Shown one piece after another: positions 1 through 20,324 of a DNA stretch of 64,000 nt (the first letter of the stretch is position 1; each line of letters opens with the position of its first letter). Below the pieces are notes generated by a model. The model was not told the origin of the DNA and did no database searches. It was given only the letters and a program-made list of their open reading frames with translations. A program made the position numbers and the translations under genes. The stretch comes from Rhodococcus sp. SMB37 (GTDB lineage: Bacteria > Actinomycetota > Actinomycetes > Mycobacteriales > Mycobacteriaceae): positions 62,001-126,000 of the forward strand of contig NZ_SLVY01000007.1 in the NCBI RefSeq assembly GCF_004345605.1, written 5' to 3'.

Positions 1-504
1 TCCGGCAAGGAAATTCCATCCGAGGCCGAATGGGAGTTCGCTGCTCGCGGCGGCCTGGACAAGGCCACCTACACCTGGGGAGACGCTCGGGAACCGGATG
101 GTCGACCAGGGGGCAACGTCTGGCAGGGTCAATTTCCTTGGGAGAACCAGCGATTGGACGGATACGACGGAACATCCCCGGTAGGCAGGTTCCGCTCCAA
201 CGGTTACGGCCTCTTCGACATGGCCGGAAACGTGTGGGAATGGACACGAGATCATTTTCTTCCGAGTCATGATCAGGGGATGAAGAACACCGCACCGGTG
301 ACTGCCTGCTGTGTCCCGAAGAATCCGGTGCAACAAGCAGCAGGTGACCTCGCTGCCGACGAGCCGTATCCCCGGCGTGTGGTCAAAGGAGGATCTCACC
401 TGTGCTCGCCCAACTACTGTGACCGGTACCGACCCGCCGCGCGCCAGGGGCACACCGAGGACGCGTCGACCGGGCACATCGGCTTCCGATGCATCGTGCG
501 CTGA
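1..504 (+). CDS. Formylglycine-generating enzyme (FGE-sulfatase domain), C-terminal part
   Basis: The gene enters from the left edge; 167 residues are visible and the frame is open from base 1. FGE is a copper oxidase that converts the active-site cysteine of type I sulfatases to C-alpha-formylglycine. Visible hallmarks are the SEAEWEFAARGG and MAGNVWEW motifs of the FGE fold, and near the end GGSHLCSPNYCDRYR, which holds both catalytic cysteines in the spacing of characterised FGEs, followed by the closing GFRCIVR. These residues argue for a real FGE rather than one of the many FGE-fold proteins lacking them. A Cys-type sulfatase lies 1.1 kb downstream on the same strand and is the obvious client. 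The N-terminus and start are outside the window. Confidence 0.93.
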   Translation, partial: SGKEIPSEAEWEFAARGGLDKATYTWGDAREPDGRPGGNVWQGQFPWENQRLDGYDGTSPVGRFRSNGYGLFDMAGNVWEWTRDHFLPSHDQGMKNTAPVTACCVPKNPVQQAAGDLAADEPYPRRVVKGGSHLCSPNYCDRYRPAARQGHTEDASTGHIGFRCIVR

Positions 505-635: not shown

Positions 636-1475
636 ATGCCGTCGGCGCACGCTGGTCGCATGACATCGAAACCACGAATCGCCCCCAAGGCGTTCCCTCG
701 TCCGCCGATGCGGAAGTACGAGGGAACCCGAGAGGACGCTGCACGGTGGGTTCGTGACGTACTGCGGACGCAGATCCTCGACGGTGTATACGGTGGGCTG
801 GCAGCCCCCCGACCGATGCTTCCGAGCGAGGGCGAACTAGCCGCCGAATGGGGAGTGAGCCGCAATGCAATACGAGAGGCACTCGACCTCCTGAGGGCGG
901 AAGGCCTGATCACCCGAGTCCAGGGTGCAGGTACTTTCGTCACCGGAGCCAAGTTGCGCCAGAGTATCGACCGGCTGGAAGGACTGGCCGAGTCGCTCGC
1001 AGGCCATCAACTCACTGTGCAGAACACGGTACTGTCGGTTCGGGAGTCGACCGCCACCCCCCTCGTCGCGGCAAAACTTGCTGTGCCGGAAGGAAGCCCG
1101 ATACTGTTCGTCGAACGGTTGCGTTCCGTGGCGAACGTGCCGCTGTCACTCGACACCACATCGTTACGTCCGGAAGCCATCGACGCTCTCGCGGACGCAG
1201 ACTTGGGCAACCAGGACATCTTCGGTCTACTGGAAAGCAAGCGGGGGATTCGGATCGGCAAGGCCGAGAATACTTTCGAAGCGGTCTCCGCCGATCGTGG
1301 CACAGCCAGACATCTGGATGTCAGTCCTGGCAGTCCGATACTACTACTCAGTCGACTCAGTTTCCTCGAAGACGGCACTCCGTTCGACCTGGAGTCCATT
1401 CGCTACCGCGGGGACCGTCTGTCCCTGGTTTCGGTCAACCCGCGCAGTCGGTCCACCGACTCCCACCGCCCCTGA
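636..1475 (+). CDS. GntR family (HutC/UTRA) transcriptional regulator
   Basis: A cytoplasmic one-component regulator. An N-terminal winged helix-turn-helix (roughly residues 30-95; LPSEGELAAEWGVSRNAIRE then GLITRVQGAGTFV) is typical of GntR. It is followed by a UTRA effector domain (about 115-265) with the strand pattern of the HutC subfamily, including SPILFVERLR and SPILLLSRLSF. The start is uncertain: ATG 636 is the longest frame, ATG 660 and ATG 708 are also in frame, and none has a strong ribosome binding site. It lies between the FGE and sulfatase genes on the same strand, so it probably controls sulfatase, transporter or FGE expression in response to a sulfur compound. The ligand cannot be read from the sequence. 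Confidence 0.88.
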   Translation: MPSAHAGRMTSKPRIAPKAFPRPPMRKYEGTREDAARWVRDVLRTQILDGVYGGLAAPRPMLPSEGELAAEWGVSRNAIREALDLLRAEGLITRVQGAGTFVTGAKLRQSIDRLEGLAESLAGHQLTVQNTVLSVRESTATPLVAAKLAVPEGSPILFVERLRSVANVPLSLDTTSLRPEAIDALADADLGNQDIFGLLESKRGIRIGKAENTFEAVSADRGTARHLDVSPGSPILLLSRLSFLEDGTPFDLESIRYRGDRLSLVSVNPRSRSTDSHRP

Positions 1476-1579: not shown

Positions 1580-2956
1580 ATGTCCGCATCACCTCTGAAG
1601 CAACCGAACATCGTCTACTTCCACGTTGACAATCTCGGTCTCGGCGAGCTCGGCTGCTTCGGCGGCGGCATACTCCGCGGCGCCGACACCAAGAACATCG
1701 ACACCTTCGCCGGAGAGAGTCTGAAGCTGTCCCATTTCGTCGTCGAACCACAATGCACCCCAACCAGATCAGCGCTGATGACCGGCCGGTACCCGATCCG
1801 ATCGGGTAACCACACCATCGCGCTGGGCGGTAATGCCGGCGGCATCGTCTCCTGGGAGCGGACCATCGGTGACATCCTTTCCGACGCCGGGTACGCCACG
1901 GCGTGCTACGGCAAGTGGCACATCGGAGCAGAGGACGGCCGTTGGCCTACCGATCACGGTTTCGATGAATGGTACGGTCCTGCGCGGACCTACGACGAGT
2001 GCTTGTGGCCCGACGATCCGTGGTACAAGGGCGAACGCGACGGCTGGTCCTACATGTACGACGGGACGAAGGAAGGCGGCGTTCGCACTACGGACGAGCA
2101 GTTGACCGTCGAACTCAAGGGCCGGATGGATGCCGAGTACGACAAGCGGGCCAAAGAGTTCATGGAACGCAGCGTCGCAGAGGAGAGGCCGTTCTTCCTG
2201 TACCACAACCATTCTCTGTTGCATTTCCCGATCGAGGTCCGCGAGGAGTTCCGCGGCACCAGCGACAACGGCGCCTGGGGCGATGCACTCCTCATGCTCG
2301 ACCACGACTTCCAGAGTTTGCTCGACAAGCTCGACGAGCTCGGCGTCGCCGACAACACTATAGTCGTGTTCGCCGGTGACAACGGTCCTGAGGATCACCT
2401 GGCGGGACGAGGAACCGCAGGATTCTTCGACGGTTCGTACTTCAGTTCGGCCGAAGGCGGTATCCGGACACCGGCACTGATCCGGTGGCCGGGGCACGTG
2501 AAACCGCGCGAAAGCAACGAGATGATGCATGTGACCGACATGTTCACGACTCTGCTGCTGAGTGCAGGCTGCGAGATCCCCGACGATCGTCAGATCGACG
2601 GTATCGATCAGCGTGAATTCTGGTCCGGGGCAGAGGAATCAGCACGCGAGGGTTGCATGGTGTGGCTGAACGACGAACTGCACGCAGTCAAATGGTCACA
2701 GTTCAAGATCAGCTTCGTACGCCAGCAGCATTTCCACGATCCTGAGATTCCTCTCGGTTTCGCACGCATCATCAACTTGCTCGAAGACCCGAAAGAACGC
2801 GAACCTGTCAACCAGACGTTCGTTCGCTGGTGGGTCATGCAGCACGCTCACCGCATCATTGCCAACTACGAAAAGACGGTCCAGAACGAGGAATTGATTC
2901 CCCCCGGTGCACCGCTCGATTTTGTGCCGAAGCGAGTTGCCGACGCAGCGGTGTAG
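1580..2956 (+). CDS. Type I (formylglycine-dependent) sulfatase
   Basis: A 458-residue alkaline-phosphatase-superfamily sulfatase that hydrolyses sulfate esters. The modification site is C59 in CTPTR (the CxPxR consensus), followed by the signature SALMTGRYPIRSG. Other active-site elements visible are K112 and H114 in GKWHIG, HNHSLLHFP and the metal site GDNG. The usual N-terminal Asp-Asp metal pair reads VDN (D16, N17), a mild variant. No signal peptide is visible, so it probably acts in the cytoplasm on imported esters. The start is supported by ggaacgagg 7 bp before the ATG. The FGE gene just upstream and the SulP and ABC genes downstream point to a sulfate-ester scavenging role. Aryl versus alkyl specificity is not readable. 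Confidence 0.95.
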   Translation: MSASPLKQPNIVYFHVDNLGLGELGCFGGGILRGADTKNIDTFAGESLKLSHFVVEPQCTPTRSALMTGRYPIRSGNHTIALGGNAGGIVSWERTIGDILSDAGYATACYGKWHIGAEDGRWPTDHGFDEWYGPARTYDECLWPDDPWYKGERDGWSYMYDGTKEGGVRTTDEQLTVELKGRMDAEYDKRAKEFMERSVAEERPFFLYHNHSLLHFPIEVREEFRGTSDNGAWGDALLMLDHDFQSLLDKLDELGVADNTIVVFAGDNGPEDHLAGRGTAGFFDGSYFSSAEGGIRTPALIRWPGHVKPRESNEMMHVTDMFTTLLLSAGCEIPDDRQIDGIDQREFWSGAEESAREGCMVWLNDELHAVKWSQFKISFVRQQHFHDPEIPLGFARIINLLEDPKEREPVNQTFVRWWVMQHAHRIIANYEKTVQNEELIPPGAPLDFVPKRVADAAV

Positions 2957-3009: not shown

Positions 3010-3052
3010 GCGTTTCCACGAGGCCGGACGAGCACCAGGAGAGGTGATCGAT

Positions 3053-4609
3053 ATGAATGTCCGTATACGAGTGCCCCAGGTTCTGCGCGCTCGGTCGTTG
3101 GCAGGGAAAGGATCTGGCTCATTCCGGCTGCAGGGTCGGCCGACACTGGACGCACTGCGCAATCCACAGAAGTTCCGTGTAGAGGTTCTCGCGGGATTGG
3201 TGACGGCGCTTGCGCTGATCCCTGAGACGATCTCGTTCTCGATCATCGCCGGCGTAGATCCGGCAGTGGGGTTGTTCACCTCGTGCATCTTCGCTATGAC
3301 CATCGCAATCGTCGGCGGCCGGCCGGCGATGATCTCTGCTGCCGCCGGATCGGTGGCGCTCGTGACGGCACCCCTGGTCCGCGATCACGGGGTGAACTAC
3401 CTTGTCGGTGCAGTTATTCTCGCCGGATTTCTGCAGATTCTACTGTCCAGATGTGGCGTCACCAGGTTGATGCGCTTTATTCCGAACAGTGTGGTGACCG
3501 GTTTCGTCAATGCTCTGGCAATCTTGATCTTCTCCGCGCAACTGCCCCACCTCATCGATGTCCCGTGGCTCGTCTACCCGCTCACCGGGGCCGGGGTGAT
3601 CGTGATGTTCGTGATGCCGAAGCTCACCCGGAGTATCCCCGCGCCGCTCGTCGCCACCGCCGTTCTGACCGTGATCACCGTTGTGTTTGCATTCGGTGTC
3701 CCGCGGGTGGGCGACGAAGGTGAATTGAGTGCAGCGTTCCCCGTGCCGGGAATCCCCGGTCTCCCGGTCACGTTCGAGACCCTTCGCATTCTCGCTCCGT
3801 ATGCAATCGCGGTGGCGTTGGTCGGGTTACTGGAGTCACTGATCACCGCGCGGATGGTCGACGAGTTGACGGACACACATTCCGACCATCGTCATGAGGC
3901 CCGCGGGCAAGGGGTATCGAACGTGGTCACCGGATTGTTCGGTGGGATGGGTGGATGCGCCATGATCGGTCAGACAATGATGAACGTGAAGTCGTGCGGC
4001 GCGACGACGCGTATCTCCACATTCGTGGCCGGTGCCTCACTGTTGGTGTTGGTCACCCTGTTCGGACCTGCCCTCGCCGCGATTCCGATGGCGGCGCTCG
4101 TGGCAGTCATGATCATGGTGTCCATGGCCACCATGGATTGGGGCTCAGTCAAGCCTTCGACGCTTCGCCGGATGCCGCGCAGCGAGACCACCACCATGCT
4201 ACTCACCGTCGCAGTGACCGTCGCGACGCACAACCTGGCCTACGGCGTCATCGCCGGCGTCCTGTGCGCAATGGTGCTGTTCGTAGCCGAACTCGCCAAC
4301 GGAACCGCCGTCGAACCGACGTCAGTGGTAGCGGGAGAGGCATCGAACGAAGGAAGGACCTACCGTGTGACCGGGCAGTTGTTCTTCGCTTCCAGCAATA
4401 CTCTCGTGCAACATTTCGATTTCAGCGGCGATCCGTCGCCGATCACGATCGACTTGTCAGGCACCCGCGTGTGGGACGGAACCGCGGTGTCGACGTTGAA
4501 TGCCGTCGAAGCCCGATACACAAAGCTCGGCAAGACTGTTCGCTTGACTGGGTGGAACGGTCCATCCGCTGCCCTTCGGACTCGCGTGTCCGGATCGCCT
4601 GTGCCCTAG
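3053..4609 (+). CDS. SulP family anion transporter with C-terminal STAS domain
   Basis: A 518-residue integral membrane protein of the SulP/SLC26 family, likely a sulfate (or bicarbonate) transporter. The N-terminal part holds the family start LAGLVTALALIPETISFSII and about ten or eleven membrane segments. The last roughly 110 residues form a STAS domain (ITIDLSGTRVWDGTAV). An in-frame GTG lies at 3044, but AGGAGAGG (3037-3044) sits 8 bp before ATG 3053, so the ATG is preferred. Placed directly after the sulfatase, it could import sulfate or export the sulfate released by ester hydrolysis; the sequence does not decide the direction. Confidence 0.9.
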   Translation: MNVRIRVPQVLRARSLAGKGSGSFRLQGRPTLDALRNPQKFRVEVLAGLVTALALIPETISFSIIAGVDPAVGLFTSCIFAMTIAIVGGRPAMISAAAGSVALVTAPLVRDHGVNYLVGAVILAGFLQILLSRCGVTRLMRFIPNSVVTGFVNALAILIFSAQLPHLIDVPWLVYPLTGAGVIVMFVMPKLTRSIPAPLVATAVLTVITVVFAFGVPRVGDEGELSAAFPVPGIPGLPVTFETLRILAPYAIAVALVGLLESLITARMVDELTDTHSDHRHEARGQGVSNVVTGLFGGMGGCAMIGQTMMNVKSCGATTRISTFVAGASLLVLVTLFGPALAAIPMAALVAVMIMVSMATMDWGSVKPSTLRRMPRSETTTMLLTVAVTVATHNLAYGVIAGVLCAMVLFVAELANGTAVEPTSVVAGEASNEGRTYRVTGQLFFASSNTLVQHFDFSGDPSPITIDLSGTRVWDGTAVSTLNAVEARYTKLGKTVRLTGWNGPSAALRTRVSGSPVP

Positions 4610-5201: not shown

Positions 5202-5543
5202 CTATCGAACCAACGCGACCACGAGCAGGGCGACGCACAGGACAGTGTTCGTCGCAGCTGTCACCGCGATGAAGGACGGTGCCCGTACACGCGGCGACAA
5301 CGGAACAGCCGATAGTACGGCTGCTCGCCGACGACCGGTGACGTAGATTGCCGCGGCCGCCGTGAACGCGGCGACCGCAGCCACCGTGGACACCGAGACC
5401 CACTCTCCAGGGTCGAAAAACAGATCACGGCTTCCCACCAGAAGGCCGTTAGTGAACATTGCGGCTGAAGTGCGCGTCCAGGACAGCGCGGTGCGCTCCG
5501 GCTGCAGGCCGGGGTCACGGAGCGGCGCAGCACCTTCCGTCAT
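5202..5543 (-). CDS. DUF202 family membrane protein (second of a pair)
   Basis: A 113-residue protein with the DUF202 signature LQPERTALSWTRTSAAM followed by three hydrophobic segments (about residues 22-42, 50-70 and 92-112). Its function is unknown; DUF202 proteins are small inner-membrane proteins often found in pairs. Its ATG overlaps the stop of the upstream DUF202 gene by 4 bp, so the two are co-translated and may form a heteromer. It runs convergently toward the SulP gene. Whether it belongs to the sulfur island is unknown. Confidence 0.8.
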   Translation of the reverse strand: MTEGAAPLRDPGLQPERTALSWTRTSAAMFTNGLLVGSRDLFFDPGEWVSVSTVAAVAAFTAAAAIYVTGRRRAAVLSAVPLSPRVRAPSFIAVTAATNTVLCVALLVVALVR

Positions 5544-5911
5544 CCTGCTGCACTGATCGTTGCAGCGACGATCACGGTTCCGCCGATCCCCGCGAGCAGT
5601 ACCGCCAATCCGAGAGGAAGCCTCGACGCCGGTAGGCGTAGACCCCGGCGAATTGCCTGGTCAACACGGCGCCATCGCATCCATCCGCCCGACGCGGACA
5701 TCAATGCGGCCGCACCGAGAAGTCCGCCGAGTGCGTGCGCCAGGTGGGTGTGTCCCGTCTCCGCCAGGAAGTGAAGAACGGCGACGGCCGCGGCCAACAA
5801 CCCCAACGAGGTGCGCTGCCACGCGAGGAATGTCCGCTCGTTGGCGAGAGTAAATCGATAGTCGGGTTCGTCGACCGAGACTGGCTCGGTTGTGAATGGT
5901 GTTTCGGGCAC
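5540..5911 (-). CDS. DUF202/YidH-like membrane protein (first of a pair)
   Basis: A 123-residue protein starting at GTG 5911. It carries the DUF202 motif FTLANERTFLAWQRTSLGLL (about residues 20-39) and three membrane segments, resembling E. coli YidH. It is the first gene of the two-gene minus-strand operon and overlaps its partner by ATGA. It is transcribed divergently from the ABC binding-protein gene, with about 250 bp of shared upstream DNA. Biochemical role unknown. Confidence 0.82.
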   Translation of the reverse strand: MPETPFTTEPVSVDEPDYRFTLANERTFLAWQRTSLGLLAAAVAVLHFLAETGHTHLAHALGGLLGAAALMSASGGWMRWRRVDQAIRRGLRLPASRLPLGLAVLLAGIGGTVIVAATISAAG

Positions 5912-6160: not shown

Positions 6161-7648
6161 ATGGTCATGTTCAACGCCCGAGATAGTCGCCGACGTCATC
6201 GAACGACCCTCATCTGCTCTGGCCGCGGTCGAAGGACGGCCGTTGCGGCAGTGGCCGCGCTAGCGCTCTCGTCGGTGCTGACCAACTGTTCAGTACTCGA
6301 ATCCGATACCGTAGTGGTGAACGTGGGATACCAGTCGAAAACGATCAACACGATCAACGCAGGCACGTTGATGCGTGATCGCGGAGAACTGGAGCGCGCA
6401 CTCGAGAACGTGGGCGAGCAGACCGGCACCAGGTACAAGGTCGTGTGGCAGGATTTCTCCTCCGGTGCTCCGCTGACCGCTGCGATGATCGCGTCACACG
6501 TCGACATCGGCTCGATGGGCGACTACCCGTTGTTGACCAACGGATCGAAGACCCAGGCGTATGACGACGCGCGCACCGAGTTCATCGCCACAACCGGATA
6601 CAACCTGCGTGGGTCACTGAACCAGGTTGTGGTACCGACTAGTTCGACAGCGACGCAACTGGCCGACCTGGAAGGCAAGCAGATCTCCACCAGCTTGGGA
6701 TCTGCCGGCGACGGCATGCTCTCGACCGCCCTCGAACGCATGGGAATCGGCACGGGCGCAGTGAACATCGCGAACCAGGATCCGTCGATCGGCGCGGCCG
6801 CGATCGAAGGCAGTCAGGTCGACGCTCTCGCCCAGTTCGTGCCGTGGCCCCAACTGGTCATCTTCCGCAACCAGGGCCGATTGGTGTACGACGGTGGCGA
6901 CAACAACGTGCCGACTTTCCACGGTGTTGTTGCACGCAAACAGTTTTCAGGCGATCACCCTGAGGTCATCAACGCGTTTCTGGACGCAATGCGGACGACG
7001 ACCGAGTACATCACCGCCGAGCCGATGGCCGCGGCTGTCCGTATCAGTGAGATCACCGGCATCGAACCAGAGGTCGCCTACCTGTACAACGGTCCGAATG
7101 GCCTGGTGTCGTTCGACCCAACCATCAAAGAGCCCTTTGCTGAATCGCTCGACAATGTCAAGGACTTCCTCGTAGAACGCGGTTCGGTGAGGGCCGACTT
7201 CGACGTCGCAGGCTTCCAGAACGACACCTACCTGCGGGAACTACTCGGAGCAAACTTCGAAAGCCAGACGACAGACCTCACCAACCCGAGCAGATTATCC
7301 GGCCAAGACGAAATATGCGATCTGCCGGTTGACGACCCTACGACTGCGTCGGAAGTCTGGTTTGCCGGTGAAACGGACACCGAGCCGTCCGCAACGCCTA
7401 CCTGCCTGCTGCGTCGAATTGCCGAGTCCGGAAAGTCTGTTCGTGCCGGATACGTTCCCGATGCGTCGACATCGGTCAAACTCTTCGCGGCGCATGCGTC
7501 GTGGGTCGTCGCCCCTGAGTCCGAGGCGACGGGCAGATTCCTCCCTTTCGCGACCCAGGCCGCTGCAGACATCTACATCGCTGCTCACCCCGGCGCCTAC
7601 GCGGTGACCTACGAAACCGCATTGGACGAGTCGAAACCCACCGACTGA
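6161..7648 (+). CDS. ABC substrate-binding lipoprotein (SsuA/NMT1-like) with C-terminal NosL-like domain
   Basis: A 495-residue exported binding protein. A basic stretch and hydrophobic segment (AVAAVAALALSSVLTNC) end in a probable lipidation Cys at residue 43. Residues about 50-375 form the sulfonate/sulfate-ester/taurine type binding domain (VGYQSKTINTI; HVDIGSMGDYPLL). The family is usually about 320-350 residues. The extra tail (about 383-485), with CDLPVDD, CLLRRI and ASWVVAPESEATGRFLPFAT then AAADIYIAAHPGAYAV, resembles NosL, the copper-binding accessory lipoprotein of nitrous oxide reductase. ATG 6161 or 6167 is preferred over a TTG at 6116. The gene heads an importer operon with the next two genes. 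The ligand is inferred to be a sulfate ester or sulfonate from the sulfatase nearby; the NosL call is a fold-pattern reading. Confidence 0.85.
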   Translation: MVMFNARDSRRRHRTTLICSGRGRRTAVAAVAALALSSVLTNCSVLESDTVVVNVGYQSKTINTINAGTLMRDRGELERALENVGEQTGTRYKVVWQDFSSGAPLTAAMIASHVDIGSMGDYPLLTNGSKTQAYDDARTEFIATTGYNLRGSLNQVVVPTSSTATQLADLEGKQISTSLGSAGDGMLSTALERMGIGTGAVNIANQDPSIGAAAIEGSQVDALAQFVPWPQLVIFRNQGRLVYDGGDNNVPTFHGVVARKQFSGDHPEVINAFLDAMRTTTEYITAEPMAAAVRISEITGIEPEVAYLYNGPNGLVSFDPTIKEPFAESLDNVKDFLVERGSVRADFDVAGFQNDTYLRELLGANFESQTTDLTNPSRLSGQDEICDLPVDDPTTASEVWFAGETDTEPSATPTCLLRRIAESGKSVRAGYVPDASTSVKLFAAHASWVVAPESEATGRFLPFATQAAADIYIAAHPGAYAVTYETALDESKPTD

Positions 7649-7687
7649 AGCGCCGATAGTGCTTGCACACCAACCAAAGGACACGAT

Positions 7688-8605
7688 ATGGCGCACATGA
7701 CTCCCACTCAGGACGAACCCGTTGCGGGCTCGGCCGACAAGAGCAAGAACTTCACGCCCAGTTCGAACCCTGCACGACTTGAGCACAACTCGGACAAATC
7801 TCGCCAGCATACTGTGACGGCGCCCCACTTCCGGAAGGCCGCTGCGTCGATCGCACTTCCACTCATTCCCATCGCGACATTCGTCACCGTGTGGTACTGG
7901 CTCACGGCCAACGAGGTCGTTTCATGGCTGCGATTCAACCGAATGCCGACGCCTGCTGCTGTCGTCGAGCGGTTCGGGGATCGGCTCGGGTCCGGTGCGT
8001 ATTACGACGACCTTCTCGCGAGCCTGCAACGAATTCTGCTGGGATTCGCACTCGCCGCAATCATCGGTGTCGCGCTGGGAATCTTGATCGGACGTTCGGA
8101 GTTGGCGCGAAAGACTTTGCGTCCCTTCCTCGAGATAGTCCGACCGATTCCTGCCATCGCGCTGGTTCCTCTCACCATTCTCCTGTTTCCTTCCAGTGAA
8201 CAAGGCATCGTCTTCATCACCTTCTTTGCGGCGTTCTTCCCCGTGGTCGTCAGCTCTATCCATGCCATGGATGCGCTACCGAAGGTGTGGGAAGAAGCTG
8301 CCCGGACGATGGGCGCAGACCGGTGGACCATCCTTCGGTACGTCGTACTCCCCGGCGCGATGCCCGGAATCTTCTCCGGCCTGTCGGTTGCCATGGGTGT
8401 CGCGTGGATCTGTGTCGTGAGCGCGGAGATGATCTCCGGGCAATTCGGTATCGGCTACTACACCTGGCAAGCATATGGCCTTCTCGATTACGCCGGCGTC
8501 GTCGTCGGCATGCTCTCCATCGGAGCCCTCGGGCTGCTGACCGCCTGGGTGGTCGAGATGATCGGGCGCCGCGTCAACCACTGGCTCCCACGGGCACAAC
8601 GCTGA
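7688..8605 (+). CDS. ABC importer permease, SsuC/TauC-like
   Basis: A 305-residue membrane protein with a long polar N-terminal tail (about 50 residues), a first membrane segment (ALPLIPIATFVTVWYWL) and a BPD_transp_1 domain. The ATPase-contact EAA loop reads EEAARTMGADRWTILRYVVLPGA. The signature VRPIPAIALVPLTILLF is typical of sulfonate, taurine and nitrate importers. The ribosome binding site aaagga precedes ATG 7688. It sits 39 bp after the binding-protein gene and 48 bp before the ATPase gene, in one operon. It forms the channel for the lipoprotein's ligand. Confidence 0.92.
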   Translation: MAHMTPTQDEPVAGSADKSKNFTPSSNPARLEHNSDKSRQHTVTAPHFRKAAASIALPLIPIATFVTVWYWLTANEVVSWLRFNRMPTPAAVVERFGDRLGSGAYYDDLLASLQRILLGFALAAIIGVALGILIGRSELARKTLRPFLEIVRPIPAIALVPLTILLFPSSEQGIVFITFFAAFFPVVVSSIHAMDALPKVWEEAARTMGADRWTILRYVVLPGAMPGIFSGLSVAMGVAWICVVSAEMISGQFGIGYYTWQAYGLLDYAGVVVGMLSIGALGLLTAWVVEMIGRRVNHWLPRAQR

Positions 8606-8653
8606 AGAACCGCTGACGGAAGTTTCGACCCAACTACGAACGGAGAAATCAAG

Positions 8654-9454
<801 letters not shown>

Positions 9455-15298: not shown

Positions 15299-15559
15299 TC
15301 ACAATTCGTCGATGGACACGACACCGTCTTGGAGTGCGCGCACCAGCAGAGAGGTCTTGGTGGTGGCGGGACGCCCCACCCGCATGTACTTGTCGCGGAT
15401 GCGGGCGATGTGGGTGCTCACTGTGGCCGCTGTGACGAACAGACGAGCCGCTGCCTCGGACTTGGATTCACACAGAAGCCACTCCCTGAGTATCTCGGTT
15501 TCACGGGCCGAGAGCTGCGGCGAAGAGTAGGTGCGGGAGGGCGCGAGCACACTCGTCAT
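15299..15559 (-). CDS. 86-residue LuxR-type HTH protein
   Basis: A protein almost entirely made of a LuxR/GerE helix-turn-helix: [20 protein letters not shown] then [20 protein letters not shown]. No receiver or ligand domain is present. AAGGAA precedes ATG 15559 at good spacing. The end [14 protein letters not shown] is a short tail. It may act as a constitutive DNA-binding protein, an anti-activator or a partner in trans. It is monocistronic on the minus strand, upstream of the YnfA gene and about 200 bp from the end of ligD. Confidence 0.8.
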
Positions 15560-15761
15560 GTCGGGTTTCCTTCTTCGATCGATATGACGACCGGCGGCTC
15601 CCCGACAAAGCCCATTGAGTCCGGTCTGAGAAGAACATACGATTTTGCACCGACAACCACCAACCGAATGGGTGCCTCTCAGGCGAACACCTGGCTCATC
15701 CGCCTTGCCGACGTGGTGCAGAGACGGCCGCCGGTCCGCCTGTGCGGGGGCCGGGCCGGCT

Positions 15762-18050
15762 TCATTCCCGGTGCACGTCGTGCGGGTCCAGATCGCCGCG
15801 CAGGCCGCGCCAGCTCGGGTGACGAAGTCGGCCGCCTTCGGTCCACGAACCAAACCGCACCTCCCCCACCAGCTCGGGTTCCACCCATACGGCGTCACGC
15901 CGATCGACGATCGGCAGCTCGTCCGCGAACGGGCTCGTGTCCCGCTGTCGTGCCCGCAGCGACGACGTCAGCGCCGCGAGAGCCCGATCGTCGAATCCCG
16001 TGCCGACTCTCCCCGTATAGACGAGCCCGCCGTCGCCGGGGATGCCGACCAGTAACGAGCCGAACGACCCCGCACGGTTCCCCTGGCCCGGTCGATATCC
16101 GCCGATGACCACCGACTGCGTGAGCCAGTTCTTCGCCTTGATCCACGCCGCACCCCGTTTGCCGGGCAGATACATCGAGTCGCGACGCTTCGCGACCACG
16201 CCCTCCCACCCACATTCCAGGCTTTCGGCGAGAGCGTCGGCGCCGTCCCCTGCCAACCGGTCCGGCACTGTCAGCCTCTCCGTCAACGCGGCGAGAGCCT
16301 CCAGCACACGGCGTCGATCGTCGTAGGTCTTGCGGATCAGCGACACACCGTCCAGATAGAGGAGGTCGAACACCCGGTACTCCGGGGTCGCCCCGCGCTG
16401 CAACCGCTCGAAGCTCGTGACACCGTCCGCGTCCACCGCGACGATCTCCCCGTCGAGGACGGCATCGTGGCCGTCGAGCACATGCGCGAGCTCACCGAGC
16501 GCGGGAAATTCTCCGGTCACGTCCCGCCCGGAGCGAGCACGCAACCGGACCTCGCCGTCGCGCACCTCGACGACCGCGCGGTATCCGTCCCACTTGCCTT
16601 CGAATGCCCACGTCGAGCCGTCGAGTTCCTCGACGTCGCCCGCGGTAGCGAGCATCGGACGCAGATCGGTCGGAAACTCCTCCGACCGTCCCGAACTCGA
16701 CTGTTGCTTCATCCGGTGGGCGAGCCACTGGTCCTTCTCGGTGCGGATCAGCGCGTACCGGCCTTCGATCTTCTCACCGTGCAACCGCACGATCACCTCG
16801 TCGTCGCGCCACTTCTCGGTGTCGTAGGTGCCGGTGTCCCACACCGTCATCGTCCCGGCGCCGTATTCACCGGGCGGGATGATGCCGTGGAAATCGAGAT
16901 ATTCGAGTGGGTGGTCTTCGGTCCGGACGGCGAGATGGTTACGTCCGGTGTCTTCCGGCAGGTTCTTCGGCACCGCCCACGACGCAAGCACACCGCCGCG
17001 CTCGAGCCGCAGGTCGTAGTGCAGGCGCCGAGCGTGGTGTTCCTGGATGACGAACCGGTCGTCGTCGCCGGTCGCGGTGACTCCGGACGGGATCGGCTCG
17101 GGGGTGCGCGCGGCGTTGCGTTTGCGTCGGTAGTCGGTGAGCGCGTCGTCCGCTGTGGTGTCGATGCTGTCGAGCCGAGCACCGCCGAACGGGGGATCCA
17201 GTCCTGCGAGGAGATCACCGTGGTCGGCAGTTCGGTCCAACACTTCGTCGAATGTGAGATGCCGCAGATCCGGGTCGTCGAGTTCTTCCCAGCTCCGCGG
17301 TGCCGCCACCCACGGTTCGTCGCGGCCACGCAGGGAGTACGGCGCGACCGTCGTCTTGGCCGCATTGTTCTGACTCCAGTCGACGAACACTTTGCCGCCG
17401 CGTACCGCCTTCGCCATGGTTGCCGTGACGAGATCCGGGTGCAGCGTCGCAAGATTCGTCGCGACCTGTCGCGCGACGGTCGATGCGCCGCCGGAGGCGA
17501 GCTGCCGGTCCAGCGGCACGTAGAGGTGGAGACCCTTGCTGCCACTCGTGACGGGATAGGTCTCCCACCCGAGTTCGGCGACCATGTCGCGCACGTGCCG
17601 CGCGACCTCCGCGCACTGCACGAGCCCGGCCCCCGGCCCAGGGTCGAGGTCGAATACGAGCCGTGTCGCGGGGCCGGGCGCGGATCCGTCGAACCGCCAC
17701 TGCGGCACGTGCAGTTCGAGCGAGGCCTGCTGCCCGAGCCACGCGATTCCCGCCACCGAGTCGAACACCGGATAAGTGACCGACCGTTGCCTGTGGTGAA
17801 CCGTGCGACGGTCGAGCCACGACGGCGCATGCGGTGCGAGGTTCTTCTCGAAGAACGCCGGTTCGTCGACACCGTTGGGCCAGCGCTTACGGGTGCCGGG
17901 ACGACCCACGACGTGTGGCAGCATGACTTCGGCGACGGCGACGTAGTAGTCGATCACCTCGCCCTTGGTGGTGCCGGTGCGGGGATAGAGCACCTTGTCG
18001 AGGTTCGTCAGCGTGATGCGACGGTCCCCGATCGTGCGGGTCGGCATCAC
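15762..18050 (-). CDS. ligD: Multifunctional ATP-dependent DNA ligase LigD
   Basis: A 762-residue non-homologous end-joining enzyme with the mycobacterial domain order. The primase/polymerase domain (1-290) has the metal pair D134/D136 in LVFDLDPGPG and GSKGLHLYVPLD. The 3'-phosphoesterase domain (about 325-450) has FVIQEHHARRLHYDLRLE. The ATP-dependent ligase domain (about 463-762) has the nucleotidyl lysine K486 in EGKWDGYR and the closing motif GEVRFGSW. All three parts look intact. A ku gene is not adjacent. Start ATG 18050 (MMPTR) fits the family. A 708-residue open frame on the opposite strand is only its mirror. Confidence 0.96.
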   Translation of the reverse strand: MMPTRTIGDRRITLTNLDKVLYPRTGTTKGEVIDYYVAVAEVMLPHVVGRPGTRKRWPNGVDEPAFFEKNLAPHAPSWLDRRTVHHRQRSVTYPVFDSVAGIAWLGQQASLELHVPQWRFDGSAPGPATRLVFDLDPGPGAGLVQCAEVARHVRDMVAELGWETYPVTSGSKGLHLYVPLDRQLASGGASTVARQVATNLATLHPDLVTATMAKAVRGGKVFVDWSQNNAAKTTVAPYSLRGRDEPWVAAPRSWEELDDPDLRHLTFDEVLDRTADHGDLLAGLDPPFGGARLDSIDTTADDALTDYRRKRNAARTPEPIPSGVTATGDDDRFVIQEHHARRLHYDLRLERGGVLASWAVPKNLPEDTGRNHLAVRTEDHPLEYLDFHGIIPPGEYGAGTMTVWDTGTYDTEKWRDDEVIVRLHGEKIEGRYALIRTEKDQWLAHRMKQQSSSGRSEEFPTDLRPMLATAGDVEELDGSTWAFEGKWDGYRAVVEVRDGEVRLRARSGRDVTGEFPALGELAHVLDGHDAVLDGEIVAVDADGVTSFERLQRGATPEYRVFDLLYLDGVSLIRKTYDDRRRVLEALAALTERLTVPDRLAGDGADALAESLECGWEGVVAKRRDSMYLPGKRGAAWIKAKNWLTQSVVIGGYRPGQGNRAGSFGSLLVGIPGDGGLVYTGRVGTGFDDRALAALTSSLRARQRDTSPFADELPIVDRRDAVWVEPELVGEVRFGSWTEGGRLRHPSWRGLRGDLDPHDVHRE

Positions 18051-18148
18051 CTCATTGTGCCAACCGCGCCGTATCCCTTCCCTACGTTCGAGCGAATGTA
18101 TCGTTCGCTAGGCCTACCGAGACCAGTGAGCCATTCGCTCGGTCGCGG

Positions 18149-18580
18149 TCAGCCGTACAGTTCCGCGAACGAGTTCAGCGACGTCTGCAGATCGCCGTGG
18201 AGTGCGCGCGCCACCCCGGAACCGATCGGGCCGAACAGCGGCGCTCCCCCGAGCTCGATCTTCATCGTCAACCGCGATCCCGCCCCCGCGCCGGCCACCG
18301 CGAGGCGCATCTTGAACTTGGTGCCGCCTTTGCCCGACCCGCGCAGCACCACGTGGTGCGGGGCATCGAGTTCCTCGACGGTCCACTCCACCCGGTTGCG
18401 CATTCCCTTGACCGACACCACGGACTGCAGTGCCACCCCGGCTGTGAGCGTCTCCGGTAGTTCGCCGCGCCAGCCGTCGTGGATGCTCAACCACTCACCG
18501 AACGCGTCCAGGTCGGAAGCCTTCTCCCACGCAGTCTGCGGGTCGAGCGGAAGGTCGGTCGCGACTTCGAGTTTCGCCAT
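18149..18580 (-). CDS. SRPBCC family protein, Rv0910-like
   Basis: A 143-residue START/SRPBCC-fold protein: KLEVATDLPLDPQTAWEKAS opening, the basket strands, and the C-terminal helix ARALHGDLQTSLNSFAELYG. It resembles M. tuberculosis Rv0910, annotated as the toxin of the Rv0909-Rv0910 pair, though the biochemical basis of toxicity is not clear and the fold is that of a hydrophobic ligand carrier. In M. tuberculosis the partner is adjacent; here the two MT0933-like antitoxin genes lie 8.5 kb away on the same strand. Confidence 0.78.
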   Translation of the reverse strand: MAKLEVATDLPLDPQTAWEKASDLDAFGEWLSIHDGWRGELPETLTAGVALQSVVSVKGMRNRVEWTVEELDAPHHVVLRGSGKGGTKFKMRLAVAGAGAGSRLTMKIELGGAPLFGPIGSGVARALHGDLQTSLNSFAELYG

Positions 18581-18620
18581 GATTGCAGCGTAGAGGAGGC
18601 GGGTGCCCTCACCGGGAACG

Positions 18621-18669
18621 GCCGAACGTCACCCTCGGTCGGTTGAACTGACCGAGGGTGACGTTCGGC
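18621..18669 (-). terminator. 20-bp perfect hairpin after actP
   Basis: Arms gccgaacgtcaccctcggtc (18621-18640) and its exact complement (18650-18669) surround a 9-nt loop, 21 bp past the actP stop. It is the strongest hairpin in the window and separates the actP operon from the SRPBCC gene. Confidence 0.88.
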
Positions 18670-18689
18670 TTACGGGCGCGGGCGTGAAG

Positions 18690-20324
18690 TCAGTGCGACA
18701 CGGCCTTCTCGACACCGACACCGGTGAGCGAGCGGACCTCCATCTCTGCCTGCTTGAACGGATCCTCCGGCTTGTTGCGGCCGATGTAGGTGCCGATGAT
18801 ACCGAGGGCGAAGGCGAGCGGGATGGACACGATGCCCGGGTTGGACAGCGGGAAGAACGAGAAGTCGACATCTGGGAACATTGCCGACGGGCTGCCCGAG
18901 ACCGCCGGGGAGAACACGATCAGCAGCAGGCAGCTGATGAGGCCGCCGTAGATGCTGAACAGCGCACCGGTGGTGTTGAACTTCTTCCAGAACAGCGAGT
19001 ACAGCAGCGTCGGCAGGTTCGCCGAGGCGGCAACAGCGAAGGCGAGTGCCACGAGGAAGGCGATGTTCTGCCCCATCGCGAGGATGCCCAGCACGATCGA
19101 GACCAGGCCGATCACGACGACGGTGATGCGCGAGACCCGCACCTGCTCGTCCTCGGTTGCCTTGCCGTGCTTGAGCACGCTCGCGTAGATGTCGTGTGCG
19201 AACGATGCGGATGCTGTGATCGCCAGGCCTGCGACGACCGCGAGGATCGTGGCGAATGCGACCGCAGAGATCACCGCGAGGAAGATCGTGCCGCCCAATT
19301 CGTACGCGAGCAGCGGAGCCGCAGCGTTCTCCTTGCCCGGAGCATTCAGGATGACGTCGGGACCCACCATCTTCGCGGCTCCGTAGCCGAGCACCAGCGT
19401 GAACAGGTAGAACGCGCCGATGAGCGCGATCGCCCACGTGACCGAACGGCGCGCTTCCTTGGCGGTCGGGACGGTGTAGAAGCGCATCAGGACGTGCGGC
19501 AGACCGGCAGTGCCGAGTACCAGCGCGATACCCAATGAGATGAAGTCGATTCGAGTCATGCCGCTGATGCCGTACTTCGCACCGGGCGCGAGGATGTCGC
19601 GGCCGGCGACCGCTTCGTCCGTAGAGTTCGACGCCATGGCCTGAGCGTCGGCGAGCAGCTGCGAGAAGTTGCCGCGCACCGCGAGCAGCACGAGCACGAA
19701 CATGACGCCTGCACCCGCGACCAGCAGGACCGCCTTGACCATCTGGACGTACGTGGTGCCCTTCATGCCGCCGACGAGCACGTACACGATCATGAGCACA
19801 CCGACGACGGCGACGACGATCGCCTGGCCGGCCTTGTCCTGGATGTCGAGGAGCAGGGCGACGAGTCCACCGGCACCGGCCATCTGGGCGAGCAGGTAGA
19901 ACAGTGACACCGCGAGCGTCGACAGTGCCGCAGCCATACGCACCGGCCGCTGCTTGAGTCGGAAACTCAGAACGTCGGCCATCGTGAATCGACCGGTGTT
20001 GCGGAGCAATTCGGCGACGAGCAGGAGTGCGACGAGCCACGCGACGAGGAAGCCGATGGAGTACAGGAACCCGTCGTAGCCGTAGACCGCGATGGCGCCG
20101 GCGATACCGAGGAACGACGCGGCCGAAAGGTAGTCGCCTGCGATGGCGAAACCGTTCTGGGGGCCGGAGAACTGGCCGCCACCGGTGTAGAAGTCCGACG
20201 CCTTCTTGGTGGTGCGACTGGCCTTGATGACCAAGCCCATCGTGATGACGACGAACGCCACGAAGATGGCGATGTTGAGCAGCGGGTTACCGACATCGGT
20301 ATGACCCTGCGCAAGTACGTTCAC
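18690..20324 (-). CDS. actP: Cation/acetate symporter ActP
   Basis: A 544-residue sodium:solute symporter (SLC5 fold, about 13 membrane segments) taking up acetate and related short monocarboxylates. Family features are SDFYTGGGQFSGPQNGFAIAGDYLSAASFL near residue 45-70, LVGGMKGTTYVQMVKAVLLV, GTAGLPHVLMRFYTV and the C-terminal SIPLAFALGIIGTYIG. It overlaps the upstream DUF485 gene by ATGA, the standard yjcH-actP arrangement. A hairpin follows it. LytTR-type direct repeats upstream suggest control by the two-component system at 22974-25011. Confidence 0.94.
   Translation of the reverse strand: MNVLAQGHTDVGNPLLNIAIFVAFVVITMGLVIKASRTTKKASDFYTGGGQFSGPQNGFAIAGDYLSAASFLGIAGAIAVYGYDGFLYSIGFLVAWLVALLLVAELLRNTGRFTMADVLSFRLKQRPVRMAAALSTLAVSLFYLLAQMAGAGGLVALLLDIQDKAGQAIVVAVVGVLMIVYVLVGGMKGTTYVQMVKAVLLVAGAGVMFVLVLLAVRGNFSQLLADAQAMASNSTDEAVAGRDILAPGAKYGISGMTRIDFISLGIALVLGTAGLPHVLMRFYTVPTAKEARRSVTWAIALIGAFYLFTLVLGYGAAKMVGPDVILNAPGKENAAAPLLAYELGGTIFLAVISAVAFATILAVVAGLAITASASFAHDIYASVLKHGKATEDEQVRVSRITVVVIGLVSIVLGILAMGQNIAFLVALAFAVAASANLPTLLYSLFWKKFNTTGALFSIYGGLISCLLLIVFSPAVSGSPSAMFPDVDFSFFPLSNPGIVSIPLAFALGIIGTYIGRNKPEDPFKQAEMEVRSLTGVGVEKAVSH

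Follow-up and report, generated by a model that had tools for sequence, protein, structure and literature searches.

An SsuA-type binding lipoprotein with a C-terminal NosL/MerB-fold domain that lacks NosL's usual copper motif

We find that a 64,000-nucleotide stretch of the Rhodococcus sp. SMB37 genome (contig NZ_SLVY01000007.1, positions 62,001 to 126,000; hereafter the window) encodes an SsuA-type substrate-binding lipoprotein extended by a C-terminal domain (the tail) with the fold of NosL and MerB. We hold the anatomy of this fused protein with high confidence; it bears out the original prediction that an SsuA-type lipoprotein here carries a NosL-like tail, and its island does contain FGE and sulfatase genes. 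The protein probably serves an SsuABC-type organosulfur importer, with a sulfatase and a SulP transporter acting downstream, and its tail would have a structural or docking role rather than one in copper handling, with a disulfide stabilising it in the window. The parts are of known kinds, and the combination of a binding protein with a NosL-fold tail appears to be new. Literature listings, one of them cast too widely to test the point well, showed no publication on the fusion; the earlier remark likewise knew of no described function for it.

The binding-protein part was assigned to the NMT1/SsuA type both by fold and by profile. It differs from the SsuA/TauA sulfonate-binding proteins in being longer by ~120 residues and in scoring below the curated cut-off of TIGR01728 (120.1 versus 163.5 bits). 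Solved SsuA structures cover the model of the fused protein only to residue ~318-332. Modelled alone, the tail reached a predicted local distance difference test score (pLDDT) of 92, and its top fold matches were NosL entries, as had been proposed. The common fold of NosL (PF05573; 7og7, 7osf-7osj, 7znq, 2hpu) consists of two beta-beta-alpha-beta units. Like the fused protein as predicted here, NosL is an exported lipoprotein; the difference is that here the domain is fused C-terminal to a binding protein. The organomercurial lyase MerB, with catalytic residues Cys-Cys-Asp, was compared with the tail by fold only. Sequence searches of the PDB with the tail and with an alignment of 84 tails (A2) gave nothing useful; the fold search alone gave matches. 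The suggested Pfam search gave a mixed result: the window protein did not match PF05573 and its tail alone matched no Pfam family, but one relative (L118) exceeds the PF05573 curated cut-off and 20 of 29 tails match it at E ≤ 1, a relation between fusion tails and NosL at the profile level. The missing match of the window tail would agree with an ordinary binding-protein C-terminus that resembles NosL by chance. We give that explanation practically no credence, and regard it as ruled out by the independent fold of the tail and by the point at which the SsuA structural match ends.

On sequence evidence, the tail has lost NosL's usual Cu(I) motif. According to the available text of PMC6530538, the Cu(I) cysteine of NosL sits in a CXM motif with a strictly conserved Met, and one further Met is absolutely conserved. 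In ten NosL proteins that we aligned, the CXM Met and a later Met-Gly, probably that second Met, were found in all ten and the CXM Cys in nine. Among the tails, CXM is retained in 2 of 84 (L050 and L063), the window reading C386-D-L, and Met-Gly is missing, by eye, from all 29 tails of set A7. NosL core residues, for example Asp and Phe, persist. C386 and C415 are both present in 80 of the 84 tails and both absent from four. Across the last 128 residues of the 109 proteins in our tree, 87 have two cysteines, 22 have none and none has one, states that require at least seven changes on the tree; here cysteines were counted by number, and their positions were confirmed in an alignment for 84 of the proteins and by visual inspection for the rest. 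Because the cysteines are gained or lost jointly, the pattern suggests a Cys386-Cys415 disulfide in the window tail.

FGE is not a constant companion of the fusion. Our genome scan covered the best 80 of at least 503 relatives, near the query and all labelled as Actinomycetota, and all 80-locus counts refer to these. A related sulfatase was found at 11 loci (with FGE at 10), whereas 58 carry a ferredoxin, 52 of them together with an AprA-like flavoprotein. In answer to the survey that had been suggested, the fusion does not always lie beside FGE or sulfatase genes. Sulfatase and ferredoxin occur together at none of the 80. The remaining 11 have neither within the DNA examined, and nine of these bear DUF202 genes, which are present at all 11 sulfatase-type and at none of the 58 ferredoxin-type loci. 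The tail profile at E ≤ 0.01 has matches in 19 of 396 Actinomycetota genomes, four of them weak and unconfirmed, and the weak candidates for free-standing tails (L134-L137) were not matched by the A7 profile. The fused protein also occurs on plasmids of Pseudomonadota and Cyanobacteriota: of 334 matching plasmid records, 39 have one place that spans 80% or more of the query, as do 40 of 44 with a Methylobacterium query at E ≤ 1e-30. Nine annotated regions from these two phyla have the fusion near a flavoprotein, a ferredoxin and a HEAT-repeat protein, and the unannotated L164 has the same set.

These results bear directly on the idea, put forward originally, that the tail supplies copper to FGE. 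A working copper or thiol-metal chaperone for FGE or another copper enzyme would fit the NosL fold, the alignment of C386 with the CXM cysteine, and the island FGE, in which two Cys five residues apart match Cys336/Cys341 of human FGE (numbering of PMC4505483) and so form the pair of copper FGEs. The rarity of CXM, the loss of Met-Gly, the 22 cysteine-free tails and the ferredoxin-type loci, in which no FGE or sulfatase was seen, all speak against it, as does topology. Bacterial FGE is described as cytosolic and copper-dependent (PMC4505483, available text), whereas the tail belongs to a predicted exported lipoprotein and would lie on the opposite side of the membrane. We therefore reject copper supply to FGE as the principal explanation and judge a chaperone role very improbable; with moderate confidence, the tail is not a copper domain. 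No nos genes are named in the 12 annotated plasmid regions where the fusion is intact, the 80 genome loci not having been profile-searched for them, and no mer genes are named in the same 12 regions.

A more plausible alternative, though still a doubtful one, is that the tail forms a second ligand-handling site, in which an aromatic cluster in the old NosL/MerB pocket (W400, Y431, W448, F463) binds part of the cargo, for example an aryl group. All four residues are the same in each of the 84 aligned tails, and MerB offers a precedent, its former metal site having been turned into a pocket that takes larger organometal ligands (PMC4999995, available text). However, proteobacterial and cyanobacterial tails have Tyr or Phe at W448, the aromatics may merely pack the core, and both LysR fusions described below lack the tail. 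The structural or docking reading, which we prefer, has its own difficulties: the tail's Foldseek matches have modest E-values, the proposed disulfide is based on co-occurrence and not on coordinates, the alignment of C386 with the copper Cys of NosL together with CXM in L063 and L050 means that a subset could bind Cu(I), and Asn at lipobox position -1 is unusual against the consensus.

We read the importer with its tail as pairing with either enzyme set, sulfatase or flavoprotein-ferredoxin. Paraburkholderia largidicola (L165) has, in a row, genes for GntR, fused binding protein, permease, ATPase, arylsulfatase, FGE and SulP. Identity to the window is 70.4% for the sulfatase, 45.5% for SulP, and 35.6%, 40.9% and 39.8% for binding protein, permease and ATPase, whereas these last three share 56.6%, 56.2% and 61.5% identity with their counterparts in the flavoprotein-type importer of Methylobacterium (L142). 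On the binding-protein tree, L165 groups with L142 and L164 (97, starred) and lies well away from the actinobacterial sulfatase clade (100, starred). The sulfatase label requires two changes if unlabelled rows are ignored and three if they are counted. From these identities and this placement, the same sulfatase kind appears to have joined two importer branches, which suggests, without proof, that sulfatase and flavoprotein-ferredoxin serve the same cargo class. Note that the window's own genome holds a second, flavoprotein-type cassette (G000:C3) and that both types occur in two further strains (L048/L114 and L050/L097), which argues against plain replacement; since single genomes hold both, the two types may act on different substrates or under different conditions.

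The tree, of 109 rows, was built quickly and is supported by the Shimodaira-Hasegawa-like approximate likelihood ratio test (SH-aLRT) only; 23 rows count as sulfatase-type, nine of them solely through the DUF202 marker. Its drop list had twenty locus ids: one-place repeats (L001, L031, L032, L122, L133, L139, L150-L154), copies that are truncated or split by a frame change (L006, L060, L118, L170), a frame that is too long (L096), a LysR fusion (L156), and L119-L121, treated as near copies. The tails of L120 and L121 look like those of L049 and L036; L119, which has both cysteines, was dropped without comparison. Among frames above 500 bits, A2 omits L001, L031, L032, L006, L060 and L096.

Parts of the ferredoxin-type cassette resemble known systems. 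The single flavoprotein scanned passes PRK13800 and PRK08275, named as fumarate reductase/succinate dehydrogenase flavoprotein subunit. It also matches AprA models of adenylyl-sulfate reductase (253 and 133 bits), and the cassette ferredoxin matches AprB (30.5 bits), but all AprA and AprB matches lie under curated cut-offs. The asfRABC cluster for arylsulfonate desulfurisation in Pseudomonas putida S-313 likewise unites a binding protein, an ABC transporter, a reductase and a ferredoxin (PMC4267179, available text), and AsfA/AsfB of C. metallidurans are given as Rmet_4334/5 (PMC2864759, available text). Two frames of the C. metallidurans megaplasmid partially match the cassette flavoprotein at 26-28% identity, one of which may be AsfA, and the tailed binding protein has no match there. 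With identity this low on a megaplasmid that presumably carries Rmet_4334/5, we do not equate the cassette with asf and keep it as a comparison. A sulfite exporter was also set aside as a companion of the flavoprotein, as TauE was found only in L168, the source locus of the query. One could go further and propose that a single importer family sharing a NosL/MerB-fold cargo-handling domain serves two interchangeable cytosolic modules for the same organosulfur class. The first would be the formylglycine sulfatase, accompanied by FGE and SulP; the second, its redox counterpart, would be an AprAB-like flavoprotein-ferredoxin-HEAT complex. We consider this version rather unlikely.

In the model that we favour, the SsuA-type lobes of the exported lipoprotein would capture an organosulfur anion, most likely a sulfate ester, and pass it to the permease and ATPase for import. 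An FGE-matured, apparently cytosolic sulfatase (no signal peptide was seen by eye in the window sulfatase or FGE) would then free sulfate from the imported ligand, and SulP would move the released anion. Because FGE is cytosolic and the tail is predicted outside, we assign the tail a structural or docking role at the importer, without copper, and in the window the putative disulfide would hold it together. NosL itself has been solved within an ABC transporter complex, NosDFYL, and docking on the permease would be the natural reading by analogy; our confidence in the exact role is low. The available text on acesulfame sulfatase plasmids (PMC11500405) does not mention an ABC transporter, that on Paraburkholderia nodule transcriptomes yielded no link to the cassette, and the cassette was not recognised in the available portions of Rhodococcus IGTS8 proteomics and Gordonia transcriptomics.

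Table 1. Coordinates of the fused gene and its neighbours in the window.
Feature	Position	Strand	Basis
SsuA-type substrate-binding lipoprotein with C-terminal NosL/MerB-fold domain, 495 aa	6161..7648	+	
Mature binding-protein part, Cys43 (putative lipid anchor) to ~374	6287..7282	+	lipobox LTN-C by inspection
NosL/MerB-fold domain, ~residues 377-491	7289..7633	+	
Cys386, aligns with NosL CXM cysteine; D-L next, Met lost	7316..7318	+	alignments
Cys415, second member of all-or-none cysteine pair; proposed disulfide partner of Cys386	7403..7405	+	
Importer ABC permease	7688..8605	+	PF00528; adjoins binding-protein gene in relatives
Importer ABC ATPase	8654..9454	+	PF00005; relatives' loci
Formylglycine-type sulfatase	1580..2956	+	PF00884; CTPTR motif by inspection
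FGE, C-terminal part; gene start upstream of window	1..504	+	PF03781; complete frame read from L035
GntR/UTRA regulator	636..1475	+	PF07702, PF00392
SulP anion transporter with STAS domain	3044..4609	+	PF00916, PF01740
DUF202 protein, marker of actinobacterial sulfatase-type cassette	5202..5543	-	PF02656
Second DUF202 protein	5540..5911	-	PF02656

GntR homologues accompany both cassette types in the relatives' loci. Around L034:9758-11188 (-), the paralogous flavoprotein-type cassette of the window's genome, a TnpB-like open reading frame (7683-8831, -) separates permease and ATPase, and an AsfA-like flavoprotein (17091-18695, -) and an SsuD-like LLM gene (15388-16542, -) lie nearby; all three were named by reading the sequence. 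At L002:2922-4169 (-), an M20-family peptidase stands directly upstream of the fused gene, the position of ferredoxin elsewhere; the sequence ends soon upstream of it, and a GntR gene farther up is possible. Two cyanobacterial LysR-type regulators adjoining the importer (L141:11415-13451, -; L166:13555-15555, -) are fused to a domain homologous to the binding protein, with no visible NosL tail (the Pfam scan covered the one in L141 only), and are possible sensors of the importer's ligand. On an Acidithiobacillus caldus plasmid, a copy of the binding protein (L170:6941-7939, +) ends before the tail, with transposase genes farther along. DUF971 (PF06155 in L144) and Mrp/NBP35 genes recur by the flavoprotein cassette (L144:3537-3824, L142:3311-3688, L166:18839-19326), hinting at iron-sulfur needs of that module.

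Our findings caution that 'NosL-like' need not mean 'copper'. A copper-chaperone fold appears to have been reused, without its usual copper motif, in a nutrient importer found in three phyla (Actinomycetota, Pseudomonadota and Cyanobacteriota). Furthermore, the two gene sets, which never occur together among the best 80 loci, open a testable way to learn what a flavoprotein family named only as fumarate reductase/succinate dehydrogenase-like does.
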